In this document: piece by piece, positions 15,658 through 26,302 of the stretch | Layout of the letters: every line of letters starts with the position of its first letter | Position numbering within the stretch: position 1 is the stretch's first letter | Assembly (NCBI GenBank): GCA_029571985.1 | Contig: JAKQVC010000130.1 | Span: 1 to 53,740 of the forward strand | From: Bacteroidota bacterium | GTDB taxonomy: Bacteria > Bacteroidota > Bacteroidia > Chitinophagales > BACL12 | DNA: 53,740 nt | Direction: 5' to 3' | Program-made: the position numbers and the translations under genes | The notes under the pieces: model-generated | Told to the model about the DNA's origin: nothing | Databases searched by the model: none | What the model saw: the letters and a program-made list of their open reading frames with translations, nothing else

Positions 15658-15801
15658 ATGAATAACCCCAAATAAAGCCAAAAACAACTCGAGACAGTTC
15701 AAATATTTATTGCGAATAAACCGACCAATTTAATGGGATTGGCGCTATTGGGTGGCGTATCTAATGAAGTTATAGGACATTTTAAAAAAAGAAAAACATG
15801 A
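15658..15801 (+). pseudogene. Small ORF upstream of fic, with an in-frame TAA
   Basis: ATG at 15658, 27 bp past a TATATTTG promoter element, opens a 47-codon frame interrupted once by TAA at codon 6 (15673-15675, one change from CAA Gln). After it comes SQKQLETVQIFIANKPTNLM, then GLALLGGVSNEVIGHFKKRK and T. The final TGA overlaps the fic ATG as ATGA (15798-15801), typical of coupled genes. It may be a disabled small partner of Fic, or may be used from the internal ATG (15733, 22 residues). It does not contain the (S/T)xxxE(G/N) motif of class I Fic antitoxins. Confidence 0.4.
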
Positions 15802-17240
15802 GATATAAAATACCGAACATATCAGCGAGCTTAGATTTAAATGAGAATCTTAAGAATATTGATAAAATAATTGACAACCTAAATAAACGGCGAGATAATG
15901 GCCTTGATAAGGATCTTGAAGAAAGACTTAAAAAACATTTGCTTATTTCCTCAGTTTACAATTCAAATGCAATAGAAGGGAACAAATTGTCATTAAGAGA
16001 AACAGAAATTATCCTAAATGGAATGGTTGTTAATGAAAGACCCCTGAAGGATGAAATTGAGGCAAGATCATTGGCAAATGCAACTGAATATCTGTATAGA
16101 CTAATTGATGGTAGAGAACCGCTAACTCAACGGACTTTACTTGAACTTCATAATCTATTAATGAATAATATTCCAAATATCGAAGGCGGAAAATTTAGGA
16201 CAGAGGAAGTTTCAATAAAAAATTCTGAGCATAAACCAATTTACTGGACTGATGTTCCATCTGAAGTGGACGAACTTTTCAAATGGATGAACAGAAATAT
16301 GCACAAGTACAGTCCGATTATAATGTGCTCAATTCTTCATCATTGGCTAGCATGGATTCATCCATTTAGTGATGGTAATGGCAGGGTTTCAAGACTTTTT
16401 TCAAATTTCTTCCTTCTTCAAAAAGGGTTTCCTGAAATTGTGGTGAAAATTGGTGACAGAGATAGATATTACAACGCACTTATCGAGGCCGACAATGGCG
16501 ATATAACAAACTTAGTTGAACTTTTCTCGGACAAAATAAGGCAGACTGTAAATGTTTATGAGGAATTCTTAAATGAACATGAAAGGCAATTGCAATGGCA
16601 AAGAAAATACAAGCAGATTGGAACTGAGGAGTATTCAAAAGCAAAAGAGACCTTTAGTTATGAATATGAAGTTTGGCAAAATCAAATAAATGTTTTTAAA
16701 GCATTGTTTCTAAAAAATATTAGTAGCCTAAGTGAATTGCTTCCTCTTATTACGTTTTATACAAAGGAATACGACATCCTTTCTTATAGTCAATATTTGG
16801 ACATAATGGAAGACAGAAAGGTCTCCAATACTTGGTATATTGTATTGTCAATTCATAATAAAGAGAATGATAAGAGTATGGGCTTTGTTTTCTTTTTCGA
16901 AAGATTTCGGCCAACTGGGAAAGCAGATATAGTAGAAAAGTCAACCAAAAAGCGGCCCCCAAATATTAAACTATTTGTTACAGCTAGAAAGGACCAGCAA
17001 TCTATCCGGCTAGATCGGTGTGTTGATTTGGTTAATGTCGGAACTCACGGAGATCAACTTTCCTTCGGTGTCCATAACAGAAATTGGGATCCGAAACTAA
17101 AAGACAAAAACAGCCAAGCATCAATTATCACTATAAAGGAAAATCCAAGTAAAATAATAAGAGCATTTCTTGACCAAATTTTGTTTAACTATTTTGACGT
17201 TGGAAAAAAACGTCCCATAACAAAATCTACTCGCAAGTAG
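15798..17240 (+). CDS. Class II Fic family protein (AMP-transferase-like)
   Basis: A 480-residue protein. Residues 56-62 (SNAIEGN) form the inhibitory (S/T)xxxE(G/N) motif of class II Fic proteins, in the N-terminal helical part. The active site HPFSDGNGRVSR is at residues about 188-199 and matches HxFx(D/E)GNGRxxR, so nucleotidyl transfer to a hydroxyl side chain (usually AMPylation) is expected, held in check intramolecularly. Residues about 250-480 form an extra domain I do not recognise. It is coupled by ATGA to a small broken ORF. The last codons (PITKSTRK, stop) are encoded inside the foldable element copy B. Lower GC than the T9SS genes suggests transfer. Confidence 0.9.
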   Translation: MRYKIPNISASLDLNENLKNIDKIIDNLNKRRDNGLDKDLEERLKKHLLISSVYNSNAIEGNKLSLRETEIILNGMVVNERPLKDEIEARSLANATEYLYRLIDGREPLTQRTLLELHNLLMNNIPNIEGGKFRTEEVSIKNSEHKPIYWTDVPSEVDELFKWMNRNMHKYSPIIMCSILHHWLAWIHPFSDGNGRVSRLFSNFFLLQKGFPEIVVKIGDRDRYYNALIEADNGDITNLVELFSDKIRQTVNVYEEFLNEHERQLQWQRKYKQIGTEEYSKAKETFSYEYEVWQNQINVFKALFLKNISSLSELLPLITFYTKEYDILSYSQYLDIMEDRKVSNTWYIVLSIHNKENDKSMGFVFFFERFRPTGKADIVEKSTKKRPPNIKLFVTARKDQQSIRLDRCVDLVNVGTHGDQLSFGVHNRNWDPKLKDKNSQASIITIKENPSKIIRAFLDQILFNYFDVGKKRPITKSTRK

Positions 17241-17340
17241 GGTTTTCATGGTTAAATGAAGTTTTATACTTTTATCGAAGTTACTGTTTGACCGACAACG
17301 AGTCGCATCGAAACCGCAACCGCAACCCGCAAGTAGCTTC
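17216..17340. repeat. attC-like foldable intergenic element, copy B
   Basis: Aligns with copy A (2639-2760). CTACTCGC (17227-17234) pairs with GCAAGTAG (17329-17336) with one mismatch, and GGGTT (17240-17244) with AACCC (17324-17328). It overlaps the 3' end of fic including its stop codon (17238-17240). It is followed by TATATAGG and CATAACGACAG, with no gene until 17558. Confidence 0.6.
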
Positions 17341-17420
17341 CAACCTATATAGGTCATGTCATAACGACAGTGGAAACATTAAACATTATTGCCCAAAATC
17401 GACACGATAAGGAATAAGAT

Positions 17421-17479
17421 ATAGCCGTGTTTGCCATACTTTGCGTAGCAAAGGTAAAGCAACTCCATCCTTAGGCTAT
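17421..17479. repeat. Nested hairpin in fic-kinase spacer
   Basis: ATAGCC (17421-17426) pairs with GGCTAT (17474-17479). Inside, CTTTGC-GTA-GCAAAG forms a 6-bp stem with a 3-base loop, extended by GTTTGCC/GGTAAAGC pairing with bulges. There is no T tract, so it is more like a recombination-site or MITE fold than a terminator. Confidence 0.5.
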
Positions 17480-17501
17480 TTGAACTTTCTTCACATTTGA
17501 T

Positions 17502-17531
17502 TTTGCCCTACCCGCCAGAATCGCTATTTTG
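17502..17531 (+). promoter_or_regulatory. Promoter of the five-gene operon
   Basis: TTTG (17502-17505), exactly 19 bases, then TATTTTG (17525-17531), one base short of the Bacteroidota -7 consensus TAnnTTTG. It lies 26 bp before the first ATG, with no Shine-Dalgarno. Confidence 0.6.
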
Positions 17532-17557
17532 CAACCCAAATTTAACAAAACAAAAAA

Positions 17558-18187
17558 ATGACTGAATTCAAAATTACAACAATTGATAAAGGGGCGTCAA
17601 CAGAAATTACAAAAGAGAAATTTGCACTTGACCAACACGGAATTACAGAATGGTTGAAAAGCAAAAGTATTATTACTGACAACGAAATCCTTTCTAATTT
17701 CCATGACATCATGCCATGGACAAGGACAGGTGGAGAAACCTTTGGCACCACATTTGAGTTCAGCACAAACAAACAAACAAAACTAATTTTAATCAAAGCA
17801 ATTGCTACAACAACTCCAGATAAAAGCATGAATGATTGGGCAAGGAGAAGAGAAATCCTAAAACGAAACGGTATAACTGTTTCTTTTTGGTATCATCATT
17901 CTGCAGCTTTAATCATTGAGGATTTCTATCCAAGGACCTCAGCCAAGGTATCCTTTGATAAGATTCTTAAAATCGGGCACCGACTTGACCAACTTGGCTT
18001 TTACACTCTCAAGTTTACTGAGGACATAAGAGCAGATAATATCGGCAATCCTTATTACGTTGACTTTGGTTTTGACTTAGGTGAACCTTCTGACAACACC
18101 AAGACCACCGCAAAAGAATATTTGTTAAAGCAATATCCCGAAAAAGAGGCAATAATTATTCAATTTTACAAGGAAAAGTTGCATTAA
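17558..18187 (+). CDS. Kinase-fold protein (first gene of nucleotide-themed operon)
   Basis: A 209-residue protein with the sparse landmarks of a protein-kinase/aminoglycoside-phosphotransferase fold: a Gly-rich stretch GGETFGTTF (residues 58-66), Lys80 in LILIKA, a possible alpha-C Glu99 in WARRREIL, a catalytic-loop-like D156xxxxN161 (DIRADN) and D169-F-G (VDFGFDLG). The spacing fits HxDxxxxN...DFG, although the His before Asp is absent. It is short for a kinase, so it may be a minimal or pseudo-kinase. It heads the run of same-strand genes 17558-21924 behind a good promoter. Phosphorylation of a protein or small molecule is inferred, not shown. Confidence 0.55.
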   Translation: MTEFKITTIDKGASTEITKEKFALDQHGITEWLKSKSIITDNEILSNFHDIMPWTRTGGETFGTTFEFSTNKQTKLILIKAIATTTPDKSMNDWARRREILKRNGITVSFWYHHSAALIIEDFYPRTSAKVSFDKILKIGHRLDQLGFYTLKFTEDIRADNIGNPYYVDFGFDLGEPSDNTKTTAKEYLLKQYPEKEAIIIQFYKEKLH

Positions 18188-18203
18188 AATCAACGATTAG
18201 GCC

Positions 18204-18211
18204 TATCTTTG
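18204..18211 (+). promoter_or_regulatory. Possible internal promoter (-7 element)
   Basis: TATCTTTG is a perfect TAnnTTTG match, 33 bp before the next ATG. No TTTG lies at the expected -33 position, so support is partial. Confidence 0.35.
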
Positions 18212-18244
18212 CGACATAATATAATTTAAGAACTTTATAATACA

Positions 18245-19261
18245 ATGGCACTAACTGACAACTTGACAACAATTATCTCTGAAAATATAAGGAAAGCTCA
18301 ACGAGAAGAAATCTTTTTTGAAGAAATTTATAACAACCCAAATTTGCCGATTGGCAACAACGAGTTTCTGTTTTTCATCAAGCCTGAAATAACAGTTCCT
18401 TCAAAAAGCATTCGTCTTGAAAATATTTTAAACTTAGTTCGAGAGAAGATTAAAGAATTTGGATTAAGCATTCACAATGTGAAAATACTTTCTGCAAAGT
18501 ATCTTGAGCAATACAACATCATTGCACAGCATTATGGAGTGATAAATAAGATTTCCTCAAACGCTGTGCAGAACATATCTGATCATGCAAAGGAAAAATT
18601 CAAAGAAATTTACGGCAAATCCGTTAATGAAGTTAAAGTTTTAGGCGGTTTAGAATTACTAGAGCAATACCCAAACTTCAACGCCTACGTGGCAGATTAT
18701 CTTTGGCAAAATTTAGAGAATAAAAAGTTGGCGGGTGGCACATATTGCGAAATGATAAAAGTTGATGACGAAACTATTTACCTAATTAATGGTTTTCACC
18801 CAAGACAACTTAAGCACTTTACAGAAAAAGGCAGAAGTATTGCCGTAATGACACTTTCTGGAGACCTGTCATGGAGTGATGCAAGAAATAATTTCATCGG
18901 CGCTACAAATCCCTCCAATGCAAACAAGGGAAGTTTGAGGAGAGAATTCTTAGATAATAAAGCCGCTTTAGGATTATCAGAAGTTTCGCAAGGTGTAAAC
19001 GGAGTTCATCTATCGGCTGGTCCTGTGGAGGCCTTAATTGAATTAAAAAGGTACAATTCGAATTTTGCAGTTCCAAACGGAATAAAAGATTTCTCCGAAT
19101 TTAGTTTCGGTAAAATATTGAAAGAAAACTTTGGCCAAGAATTTGATAAGATTGTTGAAAATTCTAATGTACACATTAATGGCAGGTCCATATCTATTTT
19201 TGATTTAACAGAGGAAAAGAATAGCCTTGAAGTTATAGATTTATTAAAATCCGTTATTTAG
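18245..19261 (+). CDS. Nucleoside-diphosphate-kinase-like protein, enlarged
   Basis: A 338-residue protein, more than twice the usual 140-150 of NDPK. The NDPK catalytic set can be traced: Lys46 (FFIKPE), Arg214 and the loop IGATNPSNANKGSLR (218-232, supplying Thr221 and Arg232), then Asn252 and His255 in NGVHLSAGPVEAL, corresponding to the NxxH phosphohistidine motif. Insertions of about 80 residues after the first half (residues 100-180) and 10 between Arg232 and Asn252, plus a C-terminal extension of about 70 residues, set it apart. It could transfer phosphate between nucleotides or onto another substrate. It is gene 2 of the operon, 57 bp after the kinase-fold gene and 13 bp before the GNAT gene. 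Confidence 0.7.
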   Translation: MALTDNLTTIISENIRKAQREEIFFEEIYNNPNLPIGNNEFLFFIKPEITVPSKSIRLENILNLVREKIKEFGLSIHNVKILSAKYLEQYNIIAQHYGVINKISSNAVQNISDHAKEKFKEIYGKSVNEVKVLGGLELLEQYPNFNAYVADYLWQNLENKKLAGGTYCEMIKVDDETIYLINGFHPRQLKHFTEKGRSIAVMTLSGDLSWSDARNNFIGATNPSNANKGSLRREFLDNKAALGLSEVSQGVNGVHLSAGPVEALIELKRYNSNFAVPNGIKDFSEFSFGKILKENFGQEFDKIVENSNVHINGRSISIFDLTEEKNSLEVIDLLKSVI

Positions 19262-19274
19262 CAAATTGCCAACT

Positions 19275-20249
19275 ATGAATGAACAGGTTTTAATTAGGGA
19301 GGCGACAATCGAAGACGCTCAATTCCTTTCGGAATTGATGGAAAACACTTTAAATACTTATTACACAGAAGATCATAAAGAGAAAGCTTTAAAAATCCTT
19401 GATGCTCACTTAAACAAAACAGATAAAAATTTTGGATTGTTGACCTTGGAACAAAAAGTTTTTATTATAACTTTAAACGGGATTCAAATTGGAATGGCCG
19501 ACCTTGTTACCAAGCGTCAGAATACATTCAAGATAAGTCCAATAATTATTAAATCTGAATTTAGAAATAAAGGATATGGCACCTTACTTTTTGATTACAT
19601 TGAAAAATACGTCAACAGCAAAAATGGTCGACAAATATTTTGCACCGTCTCCGAAGAAAGCGGCAGAACTTTGAATTTCTTTTTTAAAAACAACTTTAGT
19701 GTTGCGGGGAAATGTATTGGCTATCATAAGAAAAATGTGACTGAGTTTCTTCTTTATAAAGATTTACATTTTTACGAACAAGAAAAAACAATAAGAGGTA
19801 ATTATCATATAGTTTTAGCAGAGGAAAAAGATAAGGAGCTTGTAACTGCTGCATTTGGTAAATATTTTTCTAATATAGTGGAATCTATTGATGAAAAATT
19901 GTATGAAAAATTGTTTAAGACAACTAACAATTCTAAAAAGAATGAAATTTACATTTCTGCAACTAAAGATTCCGAAATAGTGGGTTTAGCTGTAGCTTCA
20001 AAAAAGAAAAGTGGGATAATAAAAGTTTTACCAATAATTCATCAAGACCAAGAAGTGTTTTCACAACTTATTCAATTTTTACCAGCGACATTTCTGGGTA
20101 GAGGTTTTCGGAAAATTTACCTTCAAACATTTACCGATGCTTCCAATGTTATTTTGCTTCAAAAATTTCAGTGGACTTTAGAAGGTGTGTTACCTAACTC
20201 CTATAAAGACAATTCAGTCACATTGCTTTGGACAAAAGAATTAGTATAG
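19275..20249 (+). CDS. Tandem double GNAT acetyltransferase-like protein
   Basis: A TTG at 19266 is in frame, but the ATG at 19275 (MNEQVLIREATIEDAQFLSELM) is the natural start of a GNAT fold; 324 residues. The first domain (about 1-165) has VLIREATIEDA, KISPIIIKSEFRNKGYGTLL (the acetyl-CoA-binding R/QxxGxG/A motif as RNKGYG) and FFKNNFSVAGKC. The second (about 175-324) repeats the pattern with SEIVGLAVASKKK, FLGRGFRKIYLQ and LLQKFQWTLEGVL, but its P-loop is degenerate, so it may be inactive. Acetylation of a small molecule or protein is inferred. It ends 2 bp before the membrane-protein gene. Confidence 0.75.
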   Translation: MNEQVLIREATIEDAQFLSELMENTLNTYYTEDHKEKALKILDAHLNKTDKNFGLLTLEQKVFIITLNGIQIGMADLVTKRQNTFKISPIIIKSEFRNKGYGTLLFDYIEKYVNSKNGRQIFCTVSEESGRTLNFFFKNNFSVAGKCIGYHKKNVTEFLLYKDLHFYEQEKTIRGNYHIVLAEEKDKELVTAAFGKYFSNIVESIDEKLYEKLFKTTNNSKKNEIYISATKDSEIVGLAVASKKKSGIIKVLPIIHQDQEVFSQLIQFLPATFLGRGFRKIYLQTFTDASNVILLQKFQWTLEGVLPNSYKDNSVTLLWTKELV

Positions 20250-20251
20250 GA

Positions 20252-21562
20252 ATGACGCTATTTAAACGAAAAATTAAAACAGACAGTAACGACGCTAATA
20301 AGCAGCCCAAGTCGTTTCTTTTTGCCACCTCTGACAATAAAAGAAGGTCACATTATCAAATCCAATCTTTTGATTTAAACCTTTGGCACTTAAACGAAGA
20401 AGAAACGAATATTGATGTTGGATTAAAAATAGAATTCAACAATATTGATGGTTTCATTAACGAAAGCAATTTAGAGCCATACGAAATAAAAATACTCACT
20501 CCATTCCCAATTTCAGGTGAAATAGATAACTTTTATCAGAAACTACTCCGCCCAAACATACTACAACTTCTTTTTAATGCCTCATATAAAGAGACAATTG
20601 ATATAAGTAAAGAGGAGACGAATCCTAATTCGGATGCGAAGTTAATTAAATTCCTGAGTGACGAAGATGATTTTGTGCTAATTCCCTTTAGTATTGAAAA
20701 AGGCGTTAATGATAACCAACTATTGCTAAAATTCTCTGGCAGCAAATACATTGATGCCACTAAACTCAAAAGTCAATTACCGCAAAGCTCTGAACATACC
20801 AATAGCGTAAGTATTCAATTTGAGATTAATGAGGTAAATGGCAAGAAAGAATTAAGTATAGAGCAAGGACGTTTAGAGAATTTTAGAAACATAATTTATA
20901 AAAATTCGAAACCAAAAACTCAAAGCAAGTGCTCATTATATTTTAGGTTTAGCTTTATCACGTATAACGCAAAAAGCGATAATATAGAATCTGTGCCATT
21001 AAGTCTTTTCTCGCGACAAGTTTATTATGATATACGAGTAAATGAGAAGAGGCAAGACTATTCAACACTTTTAAGTTTTGATCCGGCAGATTTTTTGAAG
21101 GTGGGTCAGTTTAGAACCTTTATCATCCTTCCAAATAATTATCAGTTATCTACAGCTTCAACAAGTCGGTCAACAAGATATATTCGAATTTTAGAAAAAT
21201 CTGAATGGCGAGAATATTTAGAATATTTAGGCAATGAGAAGAAAACCTTATTCGTTTATTATTGGAAGTATATTTTTGAAAACCCATTAAATTCTTCATA
21301 TAGCATGATAGCTTCATACGTTGGCGAGCACAAAACAAAAATTAAAATTTCGCAAAGCTTAATGTTGACTCTACTTTATCTATTAGGCTTTTATTTGGCA
21401 TATAATTTTATTGTTGTTCCTCTGAAAAACCAATTTTTTTTAGATGATGAACTCAGAAAAGGTTATTATGTTGAATTCACTTCTGCTTTAATTAATTCAG
21501 CGATTCCCTCGCTATTGGCATTGCTTGGGGGTAAATATTTAATTAAAAAAATAAACAAATGA
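20252..21562 (+). CDS. Membrane protein with large soluble N-terminal domain, unknown family
   Basis: A 436-residue product if the ATG at 20252 is used (an earlier non-ATG start would overlap the GNAT gene). Residues 1-350 are soluble and beta-rich, without a signal peptide. Two transmembrane helices lie at the C terminus: SLMLTLLYLLGFYLAYNFIVV and INSAIPSLLALLGGKYLI, followed by KKINK. A cytosolic sensor or substrate domain tethered to the inner membrane by a C-terminal hairpin is a common shape for membrane effectors of defence systems; that role here is inference. The stop overlaps the ATG of the MazG-like gene (ATGA), so they are coupled. Confidence 0.65.
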   Translation: MTLFKRKIKTDSNDANKQPKSFLFATSDNKRRSHYQIQSFDLNLWHLNEEETNIDVGLKIEFNNIDGFINESNLEPYEIKILTPFPISGEIDNFYQKLLRPNILQLLFNASYKETIDISKEETNPNSDAKLIKFLSDEDDFVLIPFSIEKGVNDNQLLLKFSGSKYIDATKLKSQLPQSSEHTNSVSIQFEINEVNGKKELSIEQGRLENFRNIIYKNSKPKTQSKCSLYFRFSFITYNAKSDNIESVPLSLFSRQVYYDIRVNEKRQDYSTLLSFDPADFLKVGQFRTFIILPNNYQLSTASTSRSTRYIRILEKSEWREYLEYLGNEKKTLFVYYWKYIFENPLNSSYSMIASYVGEHKTKIKISQSLMLTLLYLLGFYLAYNFIVVPLKNQFFLDDELRKGYYVEFTSALINSAIPSLLALLGGKYLIKKINK

Positions 21563-21924
21563 AATCATTAAAAGAACTTCAAAACCATATAGCCGAATTC
21601 GATATAAAGAGAGAATGGGATGGATTTTATCCTTATGATATTCTTTTAAATATAAACGAAGAAGTAGGCGAGATGTGGCACAGAATGGCATGGGTTGATG
21701 AAGCAAAAAAAAGAGAACTTATTAAGAAGTATCACGGAAAATTTGAAAACGACGTTGCAGATATTATATACTTAGCTCTTAAGCTAGCCAATCAATTGGG
21801 TGTTGATGCTGAGAAGGGAATTTTAGATGTTTTTCAAGAATATGAAAAGCGTTTTCCAATAGCTGAAACAAAGGGAAAGACAGCAAATAAAGATTTTGGA
21901 ATAGATAATAAAGACCCCGAATAA
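21559..21924 (+). CDS. MazG-like NTP pyrophosphohydrolase
   Basis: A 121-residue all-alpha protein with the MazG/dCTPase-type metal motifs NEEVGEM (EExxE, residues 34-38) and FENDVADIIYLALKLANQLG (ExxxxD, residues 63-68), then ILDVFQEYEKRFP. Proteins of this fold hydrolyse (deoxy)nucleoside triphosphates to the monophosphate and pyrophosphate. It is the last gene of the operon, starting inside the stop codon of the membrane-protein gene. Paired with an NDPK-like protein in one operon, it suggests the system acts on a nucleotide or nucleotide-like signal. Confidence 0.8.
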   Translation: MKSLKELQNHIAEFDIKREWDGFYPYDILLNINEEVGEMWHRMAWVDEAKKRELIKKYHGKFENDVADIIYLALKLANQLGVDAEKGILDVFQEYEKRFPIAETKGKTANKDFGIDNKDPE

Positions 21925-22136: not shown

Positions 22137-22805
22137 TTAGGTAGCTTCCAATTTAGGGATAACCTTAACTTTCACTTCTTCAAAAAAATCGTTTAGACTA
22201 CAATTGTAGCTTAAAAAATTTCCTTGCCTAATCTCTTTTTCTTTAGAAAGAGGTTTACTGATAACAAGAAAGTTATCATAGTTTGAAGTGGAATTTATTC
22301 CCTTTTTGCCCAATATTCGACTTAATTTTTCCTTTGGCTTTGCAGAGGCGGTGGAATCATTTTGATCATAGATAGTAAGTATCCACGCATCAATTTCTTC
22401 TATTGCAACTGCATATAAAATTTGATCAGACATTTCCATCTTAAGCCAAGTGTTGATTTGCTTTACTACCAACTCCCGCAATTCTTCACAATAAGTAGCG
22501 GACTTTTTATCGGGTCTTTTAATCCCATACATTTCTGCTTCAGCTGTGTCAATGTGAATTACAACAAAATTCTGACCTTCGAATGCAAGAAATCCATCAA
22601 TTAACTCACGCTTTTCGCATTCTTCTTTAACCACAGACCAAGTGCTAAATGCTTTGGCGCTTATAAGCGCCTTATCCGTTTCATCGTAATTGTAGATTGG
22701 TCTTATAGCCTCTATATTACTTCGATCAATGCCAGTTAGACCTGTAATTATATTTGTAATAACCGCCCTATCGGCATGTCCTTCAGAAATTACTCCAATT
22801 TTCAT
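22137..22805 (-). CDS. Stand-alone Toprim-like protein (DUF4276-like), putative nuclease
   Basis: The start at 22805 (MKIGVISEGHADRAV) is chosen because it puts the Toprim motif at the N terminus and follows the ATPase stop by 1 bp; a longer in-frame start at 22832 would overlap the ATPase. 222 residues. Toprim landmarks are the Glu in ISEGHADRAVI (Glu8) and the acidic strand VVIHIDTAEAE (Asp86), then AIEEIDAWILT, which resembles the EhEAWLLA box of DUF4276 proteins. Toprim domains of OLD-type systems cleave DNA or RNA with Mg ions. Here it is separate from the ATPase, as in two-gene ATPase-plus-Toprim defence systems, and is the last gene of the minus-strand operon. Confidence 0.75.
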   Translation of the reverse strand: MKIGVISEGHADRAVITNIITGLTGIDRSNIEAIRPIYNYDETDKALISAKAFSTWSVVKEECEKRELIDGFLAFEGQNFVVIHIDTAEAEMYGIKRPDKKSATYCEELRELVVKQINTWLKMEMSDQILYAVAIEEIDAWILTIYDQNDSTASAKPKEKLSRILGKKGINSTSNYDNFLVISKPLSKEKEIRQGNFLSYNCSLNDFFEEVKVKVIPKLEAT

Positions 22806-22806
22806 A

Positions 22807-24432
22807 TCAGAAATTTTTGGGTACAGCTCCAAGCAATCCTTTTAACCACATTTCTGATAGTTTAAAATTTTTATCGCTTAAGTTCTCTTTAAATTTTATC
22901 CTTCTGGTTTTCGTTTTTCCATCACTATCTCTATAGACTTCAAATAATCTTTGTTCCTCATCTAATAAATTCAATCCATCTAAGATAGCTGGATTATGAG
23001 TTGTTATTAATACTTGTTTTTCTGTCTGTTTAGTAATTTTAACCAACTCCGATACCAATGTTTGACATAATCTAGGATTTAACGCTGTCTCTATGTTGTC
23101 AATTGCAAACAACTTTGGTGTCTTAGAACTTATAAAGAGAGCTAGATAGAACAGGACGTGTAATACTCCCTCATTTGAATTTTCTGCAGAAAAAGTATTA
23201 TTATTCTTTTTCATAAATTTGTCCTTGAAATATAAAGTAGATATACTTCGTCCCGGCTTTAAGCCCATAACCTTAAACTTATCTTCCTTATCAGCGATTA
23301 TCTCCCCTAGCCAGTCAAAGAAGACAAGGCACTTGTTAAGCTGAGTTCGTTCTGCGCTATTAAAGCTCGCGATTAACAGGTCAAGTCCTTCTCCATTAAT
23401 TCCCAATGGGGTTTTCTTACTATCCGCGGGTGTTATCCCTCTTAATGATTTCGTACTTAAATCATAAATCGAATATTCTGATAAAAGGTCATCAAAATTT
23501 CGATCGCGTTTTAAACCTTTGGCCGCTATCAACTCGTTCGCTCTATTTAACAATTCATCTCCAGAAATCCCAGGATTCTTTTTAGTTATCAGATTGAAAT
23601 AATCCAAAAGAACATCAGTATAGAGTTCTTCTTCAGCGAGATTAATCCATTTTGTATAGATGTCGTTAAGATTTGCAGGTGAGAGTGAGCATTTGTAATC
23701 CTCTTGACCAGTTTTGCTTTCTAAAGTAAGACTGATGTCAATACTACTTTTTTGACTACTATCTAAAAATGAACTTAAAATTAAATCAGGACGCGCTATG
23801 CGAACTCCACGACTATAAAGACCGTCAAAAGACAAATCATTTCCCCGCTCCGCACCAACTGTTGCAAGTGCCTCAAGTATGTTCGTTTTTCCACATCCAT
23901 TCACACCAATGAAAACATTGAATCTTCCTAATTCAATTTTATCATTAACTATTGATTTATAGCTACTGATATCCATAGTTTTTATAAAAACAGATGGCTT
24001 AGAATCTCTTGGGATTTGACTCTTGTACTTTATGTAGTTTTCTAGTGCCAATTCCCAATCAGGAGTATTATATTTTTTTATTGTATTCAGGGCCAAAAAA
24101 GAAATTGCGTAATGTGTGTTTGGGCTTGTTGGTGCCAAGTCAGGATTGTCCGGATTCTTATCTATAAGACCATACTCCACAAAAGGATTTAAAGCTTCTT
24201 TTCGAAAAGATTCTCTTGAACCTGACTTATATTCAATGTTGTAGTAGCTGCTAACAAATTCCATTATATCCGTAGAAAGAATCATGCTCTTTCTTTCTGC
24301 ATTCTTCCATTCGTCATTTGGTTTTATGTTGCAAAGCGCTAGCAGCGTTAATGCCGATATCTGATTCTGCTGACCCTGTGGCAATTCAAATCCCTTTAAG
24401 ATTTCCTGCGCTTCAATTATTTTATTTTCCAT
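22807..24432 (-). CDS. BsuBI/PstI-type DNA-binding domain fused to OLD/ABC-type ATPase
   Basis: A 541-residue fusion. Residues 1-140 match the N-terminal helical domain of PstI/BsuBI restriction endonucleases: EAQEILKGFELPQGQQNQIS, LALCNIKPNDEWKNA, STDIMEF, SRESFRKEALNPFVEYGLID, then the Tyr and Trp of THYAI and PDWELAL. Residues about 147-541 are an ABC/OLD-type ATPase: FNVFIGVNGCGKTN (Walker A, 176-183), LFAIDNIETALNP (Walker B, Asp445/Glu448) and VLITTHNP (His479). The PstI catalytic domain is absent and the ATPase sits in its place. It overlaps the methyltransferase by 11 bp and the Toprim gene follows after 1 bp. I infer recognition of a PstI-like unmodified site by an ATP-driven complex. 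Confidence 0.85.
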   Translation of the reverse strand: MENKIIEAQEILKGFELPQGQQNQISALTLLALCNIKPNDEWKNAERKSMILSTDIMEFVSSYYNIEYKSGSRESFRKEALNPFVEYGLIDKNPDNPDLAPTSPNTHYAISFLALNTIKKYNTPDWELALENYIKYKSQIPRDSKPSVFIKTMDISSYKSIVNDKIELGRFNVFIGVNGCGKTNILEALATVGAERGNDLSFDGLYSRGVRIARPDLILSSFLDSSQKSSIDISLTLESKTGQEDYKCSLSPANLNDIYTKWINLAEEELYTDVLLDYFNLITKKNPGISGDELLNRANELIAAKGLKRDRNFDDLLSEYSIYDLSTKSLRGITPADSKKTPLGINGEGLDLLIASFNSAERTQLNKCLVFFDWLGEIIADKEDKFKVMGLKPGRSISTLYFKDKFMKKNNNTFSAENSNEGVLHVLFYLALFISSKTPKLFAIDNIETALNPRLCQTLVSELVKITKQTEKQVLITTHNPAILDGLNLLDEEQRLFEVYRDSDGKTKTRRIKFKENLSDKNFKLSEMWLKGLLGAVPKNF

Positions 24433-26044
24433 ATTCTATAGATAAATCAATTGATAAATTAAATATTTCTGATACCAAAGCATCAATATTATATAACCTT
24501 TTCGCTTTGATAGCCTTGTTCATTTTCTTACCCAATGTTTCGATTAGATGAAAATCTGGCAAAGGGAATTCCCTCAATTCGGTTGCACTTACGTTAATGT
24601 TTCCATTAAACGTTCTAAAATACAAATCGAATAGACGACTATTTAAAATAGCCGCTAGACCAATAGTTTGTTCAACCGTCAATTCATGCTTCTTATGGTA
24701 GATATAATTTAGGTGGTTTTCTATACCGATCATTTCAATATCTGAGTTGTTACGGCTAAAATATGGTGCGGCTACTAATCGCCTATCATCATCCTTTGTA
24801 CTAAACCTTCTAACCAACACATAGTTCCTATTTTTGACCAGCCTAGAAAGGGATTTTTTTTCATAAGTAATATACTGTCCCTTGGGTTTCCCCTTATAAC
24901 CACTATTTCTTGGCCATATAACATTCATCGATTCAACGTTGTGGAGCCATATAAGAGGGACGGTAGTTTTGGTTGGTTTAGATTTGATCATAGAAATACT
25001 TCTAAAATCAACGACTGGTCCTGTAGATATTTCTAAATTGTATAATTTCAAAGAACCGGTCCAAGTTCTAAAAATTTCAATAATTTTCTCATCTGTGTCT
25101 GAAGTAGGCAGGTGCAGTATTTTCTGGTAAGAATCTAAATTTATTAAATTATGATATTTATATTTTTTTATCCGTCTCTTATCAATGTCGCTTATCCCAG
25201 AAGAAGCTGATATTGTTAAATCCTTTCCAGTACATGTGTTATTAGATTCAGTTCTATTCCTTTTGTTGGCTTTAATGATAATGTTCTCTTGAAGTACTTT
25301 ATCCTTTTTAAAGGCTGACTTCCTAGAATTAAAAAGGTGTATTTCCTGCAAATCTACAACTGAAAAGAATATTTCTCGAAACAATCTAAAATAACTCCCG
25401 GAACAGAAACTTCTAGGAGTTATGAAGATCAAATGTCCATCTTCCTTTAAGAGTTTAGCAGCAATTAAAAGAAAAATAGTGTAAATATTAGTTTGACCAT
25501 GGATGACTGATTTTGCCGCTACAGCCCTCTCGTCATCACTCGGTAATTTAAAATAGGGTGGATTTGAAATTACGATATCATAAGCTTCATATGAGTTTTT
25601 TACATTGTTTAAAACTATAGAGTTGTGTAAGATGAAATCATTCTTGCACAAAAATATTGTAAAATCAATAGTTCTTTCATTTAGCCAAATTCTCAAATAT
25701 TCAAAACAGTTTTCAGCAAATGGAAGAATATTAACATCTGTTTCAAATACGACCAATTCAATTCTTTTTATTTTTTTCTTGCTTATGACCAGTTGTTCAA
25801 TAAGGGTAATGGACAATATTCCTAAACCGCATCCAGGATCCAAAATTCGAAGGTTCTCCTTTTCTACTTTGCCAATAGAAGCCATGAAAAGGGCAATTTC
25901 AAGCGGAGTAAAAAATTGACCATTATCCTTTTTATGTGCATTGGTAACAGTTGAAGCATAATAAATCCCCACCCTTTCCGCGTACGCAGATGGGGTTTCC
26001 TTACCTAATGGTATAATGCGAAAATCATACACGCCTTTTTTCAT
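24422..26044 (-). CDS. N6-adenine DNA methyltransferase (Eco57I/PstI type)
   Basis: A 540-residue enzyme. Its N-terminal part carries NGQFFTPLEIALFM (residues about 41-54), the hallmark QFFTP of gamma-class adenine methyltransferases. Motif I is ILDPGCGLGILS (AdoMet binding, DPGCGLG at 69-75) and motif IV is ISNPPYF (NPPY, 161-164). Later segments (LLKEDGHLIFITPRSF, then a specificity-like C-terminal half ending EFPLPDF) fit methyltransferases paired with BsuBI/PstI-type enzymes. It would methylate adenine in the recognition site and protect host DNA. It is 45 bp downstream of a small HTH gene and overlaps the ATPase start by 11 bp, so all four genes probably form one operon. Confidence 0.88.
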   Translation of the reverse strand: MKKGVYDFRIIPLGKETPSAYAERVGIYYASTVTNAHKKDNGQFFTPLEIALFMASIGKVEKENLRILDPGCGLGILSITLIEQLVISKKKIKRIELVVFETDVNILPFAENCFEYLRIWLNERTIDFTIFLCKNDFILHNSIVLNNVKNSYEAYDIVISNPPYFKLPSDDERAVAAKSVIHGQTNIYTIFLLIAAKLLKEDGHLIFITPRSFCSGSYFRLFREIFFSVVDLQEIHLFNSRKSAFKKDKVLQENIIIKANKRNRTESNNTCTGKDLTISASSGISDIDKRRIKKYKYHNLINLDSYQKILHLPTSDTDEKIIEIFRTWTGSLKLYNLEISTGPVVDFRSISMIKSKPTKTTVPLIWLHNVESMNVIWPRNSGYKGKPKGQYITYEKKSLSRLVKNRNYVLVRRFSTKDDDRRLVAAPYFSRNNSDIEMIGIENHLNYIYHKKHELTVEQTIGLAAILNSRLFDLYFRTFNGNINVSATELREFPLPDFHLIETLGKKMNKAIKAKRLYNIDALVSEIFNLSIDLSIEYGK

Positions 26045-26089
26045 CTTCTACCTTAATAGGTGTCGCTTTCATATGAAATTTATTGAATT

Positions 26090-26302
26090 TTAATCCTTCG
26101 TAGATATTAACAATTCTCTAATATCTACATTTAAAGCAATAGCTATTTCTCGCAGCAACTTTAAAGTTGGCTGACTATCATTATTGCATATTCGTGTAAT
26201 AGTGTTAGGCGTCCTTTTCACCTTTTTTGCTAAATCCTTCTGCGCAATATCCTTTTCAACTAAGACACTCTTAATTCGATTGATTTTGATTTTACCCGCC
26301 AT
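26090..26302 (-). CDS. XRE-family regulator, restriction-control-protein-like
   Basis: A 70-residue protein that is almost entirely an XRE helix-turn-helix: DIAQKDLAKKVKRTPNTITR as the HTH core, then QPTLKLLREIAIALNVDIRELL. Size, position and family fit controller (C) proteins of restriction-modification operons, which time expression of modification before restriction. It is the first gene of the minus-strand operon. The AT-rich spacer upstream contains a 9-bp inverted repeat that could be its operator. Confidence 0.85.
   Translation of the reverse strand: MAGKIKINRIKSVLVEKDIAQKDLAKKVKRTPNTITRICNNDSQPTLKLLREIAIALNVDIRELLISTKD

Follow-up and report, generated by a model that had tools for sequence, protein, structure and literature searches.

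A PstI-type restriction reader fused in frame to a PDC-M31-type ATPase suggests a new wiring of DNA-methylation self-recognition to a predicted defence effector

In type II restriction-modification (RM) systems of the BsuBI/PstI/SdaI type an N6-adenine DNA methyltransferase (MTase) gene directly precedes a gene that starts with a winged-helix DNA-binding domain (RE_N), and in ordinary Bacteroidota operons of the same order the second product is a 311–323-aa enzyme composed of RE_N and a nuclease domain. SdaI acts at CCTGCAGG, and in the paper on its structure the reader and the cutter are reportedly separate domains, which makes a reader of this type portable. Association of Toprim proteins with ABC ATPases has also been noted (PMC12409363). 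In PARIS the two are encoded by separate genes and AriA holds AriB until triggered (PMC12409363), while in OLD systems of classes 1–3 they form one polypeptide; Toprims of OLD and Gabija cut DNA (PMC10568477, PMC6755086). One more publication notes reports of RM-like systems in which OLD-ABC ATPases are coupled to diverse nucleases (PMC12839542). A literature search on PDC-M31, a phage defence candidate of PADLOC where a B protein is encoded directly downstream of an A-type ATPase, found no paper, and a search on MADS (methylation-associated defence), in which an N6-MTase occurs together with an ABC-type ATPase (NCBIfam MAD2, MAD3), found no relevant one; an earlier description of the exact architecture considered here may exist.

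This architecture was found at positions 22137–26302 on the minus strand of a 53,740-nucleotide contig of a Bacteroidota genome, the whole of which is referred to below as the window. The locus contains, in order, genes of an XRE regulator, a PstI-type N6-adenine MTase, a 541-aa fusion protein and a Toprim-like protein. A sequence-only reading had described it as a four-gene minus-strand run with an adenine MTase, a PstI/BsuBI N-terminal domain deprived of its nuclease domain, an OLD/ABC-type ATPase and a Toprim; the gene layout was confirmed and these assignments were supported by the analyses presented here, the last one as a Toprim-like protein. The end of the MTase gene and the beginning of the fusion gene share 11 bp (ATGGAAAATAA), and the predicted ATG of the Toprim-like gene (22805) lies one base past the ATPase stop, which together imply one expression unit. 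GC content is uniform and low (0.33–0.36) over the MTase, RE_N, ATPase and Toprim coding parts, and the surroundings also form a low-GC stretch. Its members encode a Fic protein (15798–17240), a 338-aa NDK-like protein (gene at 18245), a GNAT protein (19266), a 444-aa protein without significant Pfam match (20228) and a MazG-like protein (21559), so that further accessory or defence genes are possible within 15798–21924. The XRE gene (26090–26302, minus strand; 70 aa, Pfam HTH_3, 3.1e-11) has a weak PADLOC match to Control_protein (0.0045) and possibly codes for a control protein; beside the ordinary PstI-type operons examined, XRE-like ORFs were not detected (phmmer, 1e-3). The hexamer CTGCAG is enriched in the whole window (18 copies against 7.7 expected, a number reached in 0 of 100 shuffles). 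Its avoidance, looked for across the window against shuffles, was not seen, which gives no support for chronic restriction.

The MTase (24422–26044, minus strand; 540 aa) is a PstI/BsuBI-type enzyme of the Eco57I family with motifs DPGCGLG and NPPY (Pfam Eco57I, 4.6e-16). It shares 40–51% identity with MTases that precede RE_N–PD-(D/E)XK enzymes in ordinary PstI-type operons and was placed by the tree within the Bacteroidota PstI-type clade (SH-aLRT 98). Conservation was estimated for columns invariant in 18 relatives, which were scored in the window and in 40 relatives. The MTase retained 108 of 111 clade-invariant columns, and its C-terminal specificity region 53 of 55. Judging from these columns the enzyme is intact and clearly stayed under selection, and it follows that selection on specific methylation persisted. 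When the window's MTase was sought in five genomes of the same family, it was absent. A 984-aa PstI-type MTase with about 450 additional N-terminal residues was met in another locus (L164:1727-4681), where an ordinary restriction enzyme gene is next.

The fusion protein, encoded at 24432–22807 of the minus strand, begins with a BsuBI/PstI restriction endonuclease winged-helix domain (residues 1–141, positions 24010–24432). PF17728 (BsuBI_PstI_RE_N) matches residues 3–136 with E = 2.4e-38 in Pfam; phmmer matches the domain to the sequence of the SdaI crystal structure (2ixs, 2.9e-18), its sole sequence relative in PDB; and in the AlphaFold2 (AF2) model of the fusion (pLDDT 88.4) residues 3–141 superimpose on SdaI residues 12–151 with Z = 20.2 and rmsd 2.4 over 138 residues at 34% identity. 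Taken together, the three values rule out a match by chance. The catalytic PD-(D/E)XK domain is absent: residues 141–541 gave no significant alignment with 13 restriction enzymes, and tblastn with the catalytic parts of such enzymes disclosed no hidden remnant in the window (best E 0.07). About 60 other places with RE_N were fetched, and they represent ordinary-length enzymes after an MTase, pieces cut by contig ends or MTase–enzyme fusions. Since all interpretable cases are thus restriction enzymes or their fusions with MTases, the domain fused here derives from an RM system.

The rest of the fusion (residues 147–541, positions 22807–23994 including the stop codon) is a PDC-M31A-type OLD/ABC ATPase (PF13304). 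PADLOC model PDC-M31A is matched end to end by residues 150–539 (model positions 2–394 of 395, E = 6.5e-86), the AAA_21 match in Pfam has E = 1e-21, and the AF2 model folds like the heads of PtuA, SMC and Rad50 (Z 17–19). Walker A (GVNGCGKTN, residues 176–184, positions 23881–23907) is evident in the sequence and occupies invariant alignment columns, Walker B (FAIDNIE, residues 442–448, positions 23089–23109) is defined by alignments, and the H-loop is present. In the AIDN segment of Walker B an Asn stands at the usual position of the catalytic Glu, as in aligned members of the PDC-M31A family, which suggests slow hydrolysis or a different base.

The Toprim-like protein (22137–22805, minus strand) comprises 222 aa if counted from ATG 22805. 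This start is likely because relatives start there, while the start at TTG 22832 was assigned mechanically. The protein matches PDC-M31B (4.8e-9) and gave no match in a Pfam search. Foldseek with the AF2 model of this protein alone (pLDDT 89.5) returned nothing at E ≤ 0.001, and a structural aligner applied to the same list placed Toprims of OLD proteins, including BpOLD and TsOLD, among the best matches with moderate scores (Z 6.6 for BpOLD, 6.3 for TsOLD, and 5.9). Conserved residues are E17, D21, D95, D148 and W150 (numbering of the 231-aa form), and acidic positions besides E17 and D95 fit the metal-B site of BpOLD (PMC6755086). E17 and D95 are present, yet the second Asp of the DxD motif is replaced at residue 97 (22542–22544) by Ala, followed by Glu (DTAE). 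The same DTAE is common to the Toprims of the window and of loci L046, L075, L165 and L170, while most relatives have DxD. BpOLD tolerated single substitutions (PMC6755086). Based on the PDC-M31B match, the conserved E/D motifs and the moderate structural similarity to OLD, the protein can be called Toprim-like.

Among 75 distinct ATPases of this family, the window's own included, 65 have a co-directional gene of 140–290 codons directly downstream, and the closest complete relatives (45–49% identity) belong to standalone pairs. The pair is commonly found without a methyltransferase, and a linked MTase was registered in only two of the 75, the window and L080. The sequence-only reading had made its interpretation dependent on homologues that keep company with both an MTase and a Toprim gene; the Toprim is indeed present in relatives, but the MTase almost never. 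It had also regarded the Toprim as a stand-in for the lost nuclease. This idea is not supported, since a gene of similar size partners the ATPase family in loci without RM genes, and as a standing partner the Toprim arrived with the ATPase rather than as a nuclease replacement. Locus L080 (1080–5947, Thiotrichaceae MAG) contains a 1395-aa ORF that joins in frame an ISP coupler, an N6-MTase, a type-ISP specificity part and the ATPase, with a Toprim gene next. A PD..ESK pattern at its N-terminus suggests that this protein kept its own nuclease. Like the window, L080 has an RM polypeptide fused to the same ATPase family and followed by a Toprim, but there the ATPase joins the C-terminus of an MTase/specificity protein with a PD..ExK-like N-terminus. 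By its domain composition L080 is an independent parallel RM fusion, and two independent events among 75 ATPases hint that RM modules readily recruit this ATPase.

A second copy of the window's fusion was found neither in 1,654 whole-genome slots (overlapping samples, most of them with the full fusion as a query), nor in viral contigs (ATPase and RE_N patterns), nor in plasmids and phages (tblastn), nor among the matches listed for GTDB contigs. Three candidates were considered and rejected. The nearest ATPase piece (L167:4749-5363) is 58% identical over the last 204 residues, and the contig end cuts off the rest; an RE_N match and a PstI-type MTase are absent in that genome and a Toprim is absent downstream. 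In Enterobacter plasmid pE5_001 upstream in-frame stops break what had looked like a fusion (query residues 48–538), and L256 (443 aa) has about 40 extra N-terminal residues without RE_N match. Thus, the fusion is known from a single draft genome of 282 contigs, and with partial coverage a second copy may exist elsewhere.

Compared with BsuBI/PstI/SdaI systems, the locus preserves an MTase of the same clade directly before a gene that starts with RE_N, but has an ATPase instead of PD-(D/E)XK, an extra Toprim and a diverged recognition helix. With PDC-M31 it shares the full-length A-type ATPase and the order of the two genes; what it adds is the linked MTase and the N-terminal RE_N. The statement of the sequence-only reading that no such gene set had been described holds, consequently, in part: the ATPase–Toprim pair is the PADLOC candidate PDC-M31, and OLD-ABC ATPases coupled to nucleases in an RM-like setting are described as a theme (PMC12839542), while the RE_N extension occurs in no relative. 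PARIS is similar in having an ABC-type ATPase and a Toprim in separate genes, and AriA models also match the window's ATPase, but PDC-M31A scores above AriA by 211 bits, the Toprim has no AriB match and PARIS lacks a restriction-enzyme DNA reader. PtuA of Septu and of retron-linked systems has the same ATPase fold (Z 18–19), whereas the partner in the window is Toprim-like rather than HNH PtuB (a Pfam match to HNH is absent), and a winged helix of RM origin, rather than RT/msDNA of the retron, is the putative sensor. Scores for MADS models are far below cut-offs (25 vs 720 bits for MAD2 and 40 vs 420 for MAD3), and these models do not contain RE_N. Unlike OLD of classes 1–3, the window keeps the ATPase and the Toprim in separate genes.

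The two parts inherited from the RM operon differ in their divergence: while columns of the MTase were kept, the recognition helix of the reader (residues 73–86 by the AF2 model, positions 24175–24216, minus strand) is rewritten in comparison with ordinary PstI-family enzymes. Within residues 68–88 only 5 of 13 invariant columns are kept against 19 of 23 outside (Fisher p = 0.011), so that the family-invariant pattern YA.N.RET.RRQ..HQF is largely lost. Retention of 12–13 of these 13 residues is typical for 36 of the 40 relatives, the other four have 9–10, and the 36 hold at least 12 even if their MTase has only about 65% of its columns. SdaI keeps 6 of 13, and G71, S72 and K78 of the window agree with SdaI. 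The branch of RE_N in the tree is long (1.78 vs a median of 0.2). A reader that checks the site of its MTase is expected to conserve the recognition helix as PstI-type enzymes do. With 5 of 13 residues kept, the reader need not recognise this site in the PstI manner, and one can assume that it either changed or extended its specificity or reads DNA less specifically. Preservation of the columns outside the helix speaks against decay. The methylation-sensitive nuclease proposed by the sequence-only reading is accordingly weakened by the divergence of the helix, though the MTase is intact; it may still hold.

With a probability of about 0.48 we consider the locus to be a defence system built from a PstI-type RM operon, in which methylation gates an ATPase–Toprim effector. 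According to this model the MTase gene of the operon would have been retained, while the PD-(D/E)XK domain of the restriction gene was exchanged in frame for the PDC-M31-type ATPase, with which the Toprim gene came along. The MTase would mark host DNA, and the ATPase assembly would use the winged helix to examine DNA. On meeting unmodified or otherwise foreign DNA the ATPase could then change its state, so that the Toprim nuclease is switched on or released and cleaves nucleic acid, presumably either DNA, for which OLD and Gabija are precedents, or RNA, which PARIS cuts. The sequence itself shows the fusion, the absence of the nuclease domain, an intact MTase, the coupling of the genes and the partnership with the Toprim, whereas the defensive role, the gating by methylation and the target of the Toprim are deduced. 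Several features count against this reading. The loss of helix residues and the long RE_N branch imply that the site of the MTase may escape the reader; the searches described above yielded no second fusion that would show co-selection; and the Toprim, like its clade, lacks the second Asp of DxD. Moreover, related pairs do without an MTase or RE_N, and the core mechanism therefore does not need methylation.

The same peculiarities may be interpreted otherwise. It is rather unlikely, but consistent with a rewritten helix on a preserved fold core, that the fused winged helix serves as bait for DNA in general or for phage DNA-mimic anti-restriction proteins, whereupon the ATPase and Toprim trigger abortive infection, as PARIS does on binding of Ocr to AriA; the MTase would then be a remnant, either protective or orphan. 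PARIS, also an ABC ATPase with a Toprim, responds to anti-restriction proteins by cutting tRNA (PMC12409363), and an RM-derived DNA-binding surface would be a plausible target of DNA mimics. Sensing of mimics by this locus is, for its part, conjectural, and the intact specificity region of the MTase suggests that methylation still matters. Another fairly improbable scenario is that the M31 pair was accidentally inserted in the restriction gene and works as elsewhere, RE_N being a tolerated remnant under relaxed constraint. The abundance of standalone pairs, the long branch of RE_N and the single known example are in line with this, but an ORF that stayed open at about 50% divergence, the 19 of 23 invariant columns outside the helix, the confident model with its close fit to SdaI (Z 20.2), the retained overlap with the MTase gene and the concentration of losses on the helix instead of their spread argue against it.

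Type II RM systems are known to cause post-segregational killing, and this precedent, together with the intact MTase and the coupled genes, would allow for an addiction module with the MTase as antitoxin: once methylation is lost or diluted, the reader would bind host sites and the Toprim would kill the cell. Such a function appears highly unlikely, since it suffers from the same uncertainty in the reader's specificity as the methylation-gated defence model, and a plasmid or other mobile context was not identified. Finally, a singleton in a draft of 282 contigs might be the product of an assembly in which a PstI-type operon and an M31 pair were wrongly put together. It is extremely unlikely, however, because such a misjoin would have to keep the frame and break exactly at the domain boundary in DNA of uniform composition (0.33–0.36), and both halves differ from every sequence fetched.

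Little is known of how OLD, PARIS, Septu, PDC-M31 and similar ATPase–nuclease systems recognise invaders. For the putative sensor described here both the fold and the ancestry are known and the MTase partner is intact, and self/non-self gating is therefore directly testable by toggling methylation. A tentative view, which goes beyond the defence model itself, is that the locus represents new immunity wiring: a type II reader would drive an ABC ATPase and, through it, a Toprim effector, self-recognition being provided by the cognate MTase and methylation-gated activation taking the place of site cutting. If this is true, the PDC-M31 ATPase, taken together with the L080 fusion, would be a plug-in effector repeatedly recruited by RM specificity modules. 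The fusion also shows that the modular PstI/SdaI reader can be separated from its nuclease and joined to a different machine. With the cutting domain of a PstI-type operon exchanged for the ATPase of a predicted two-gene anti-phage system, the locus suggests that a defence effector can be linked in a new manner to self-recognition by DNA methylation.
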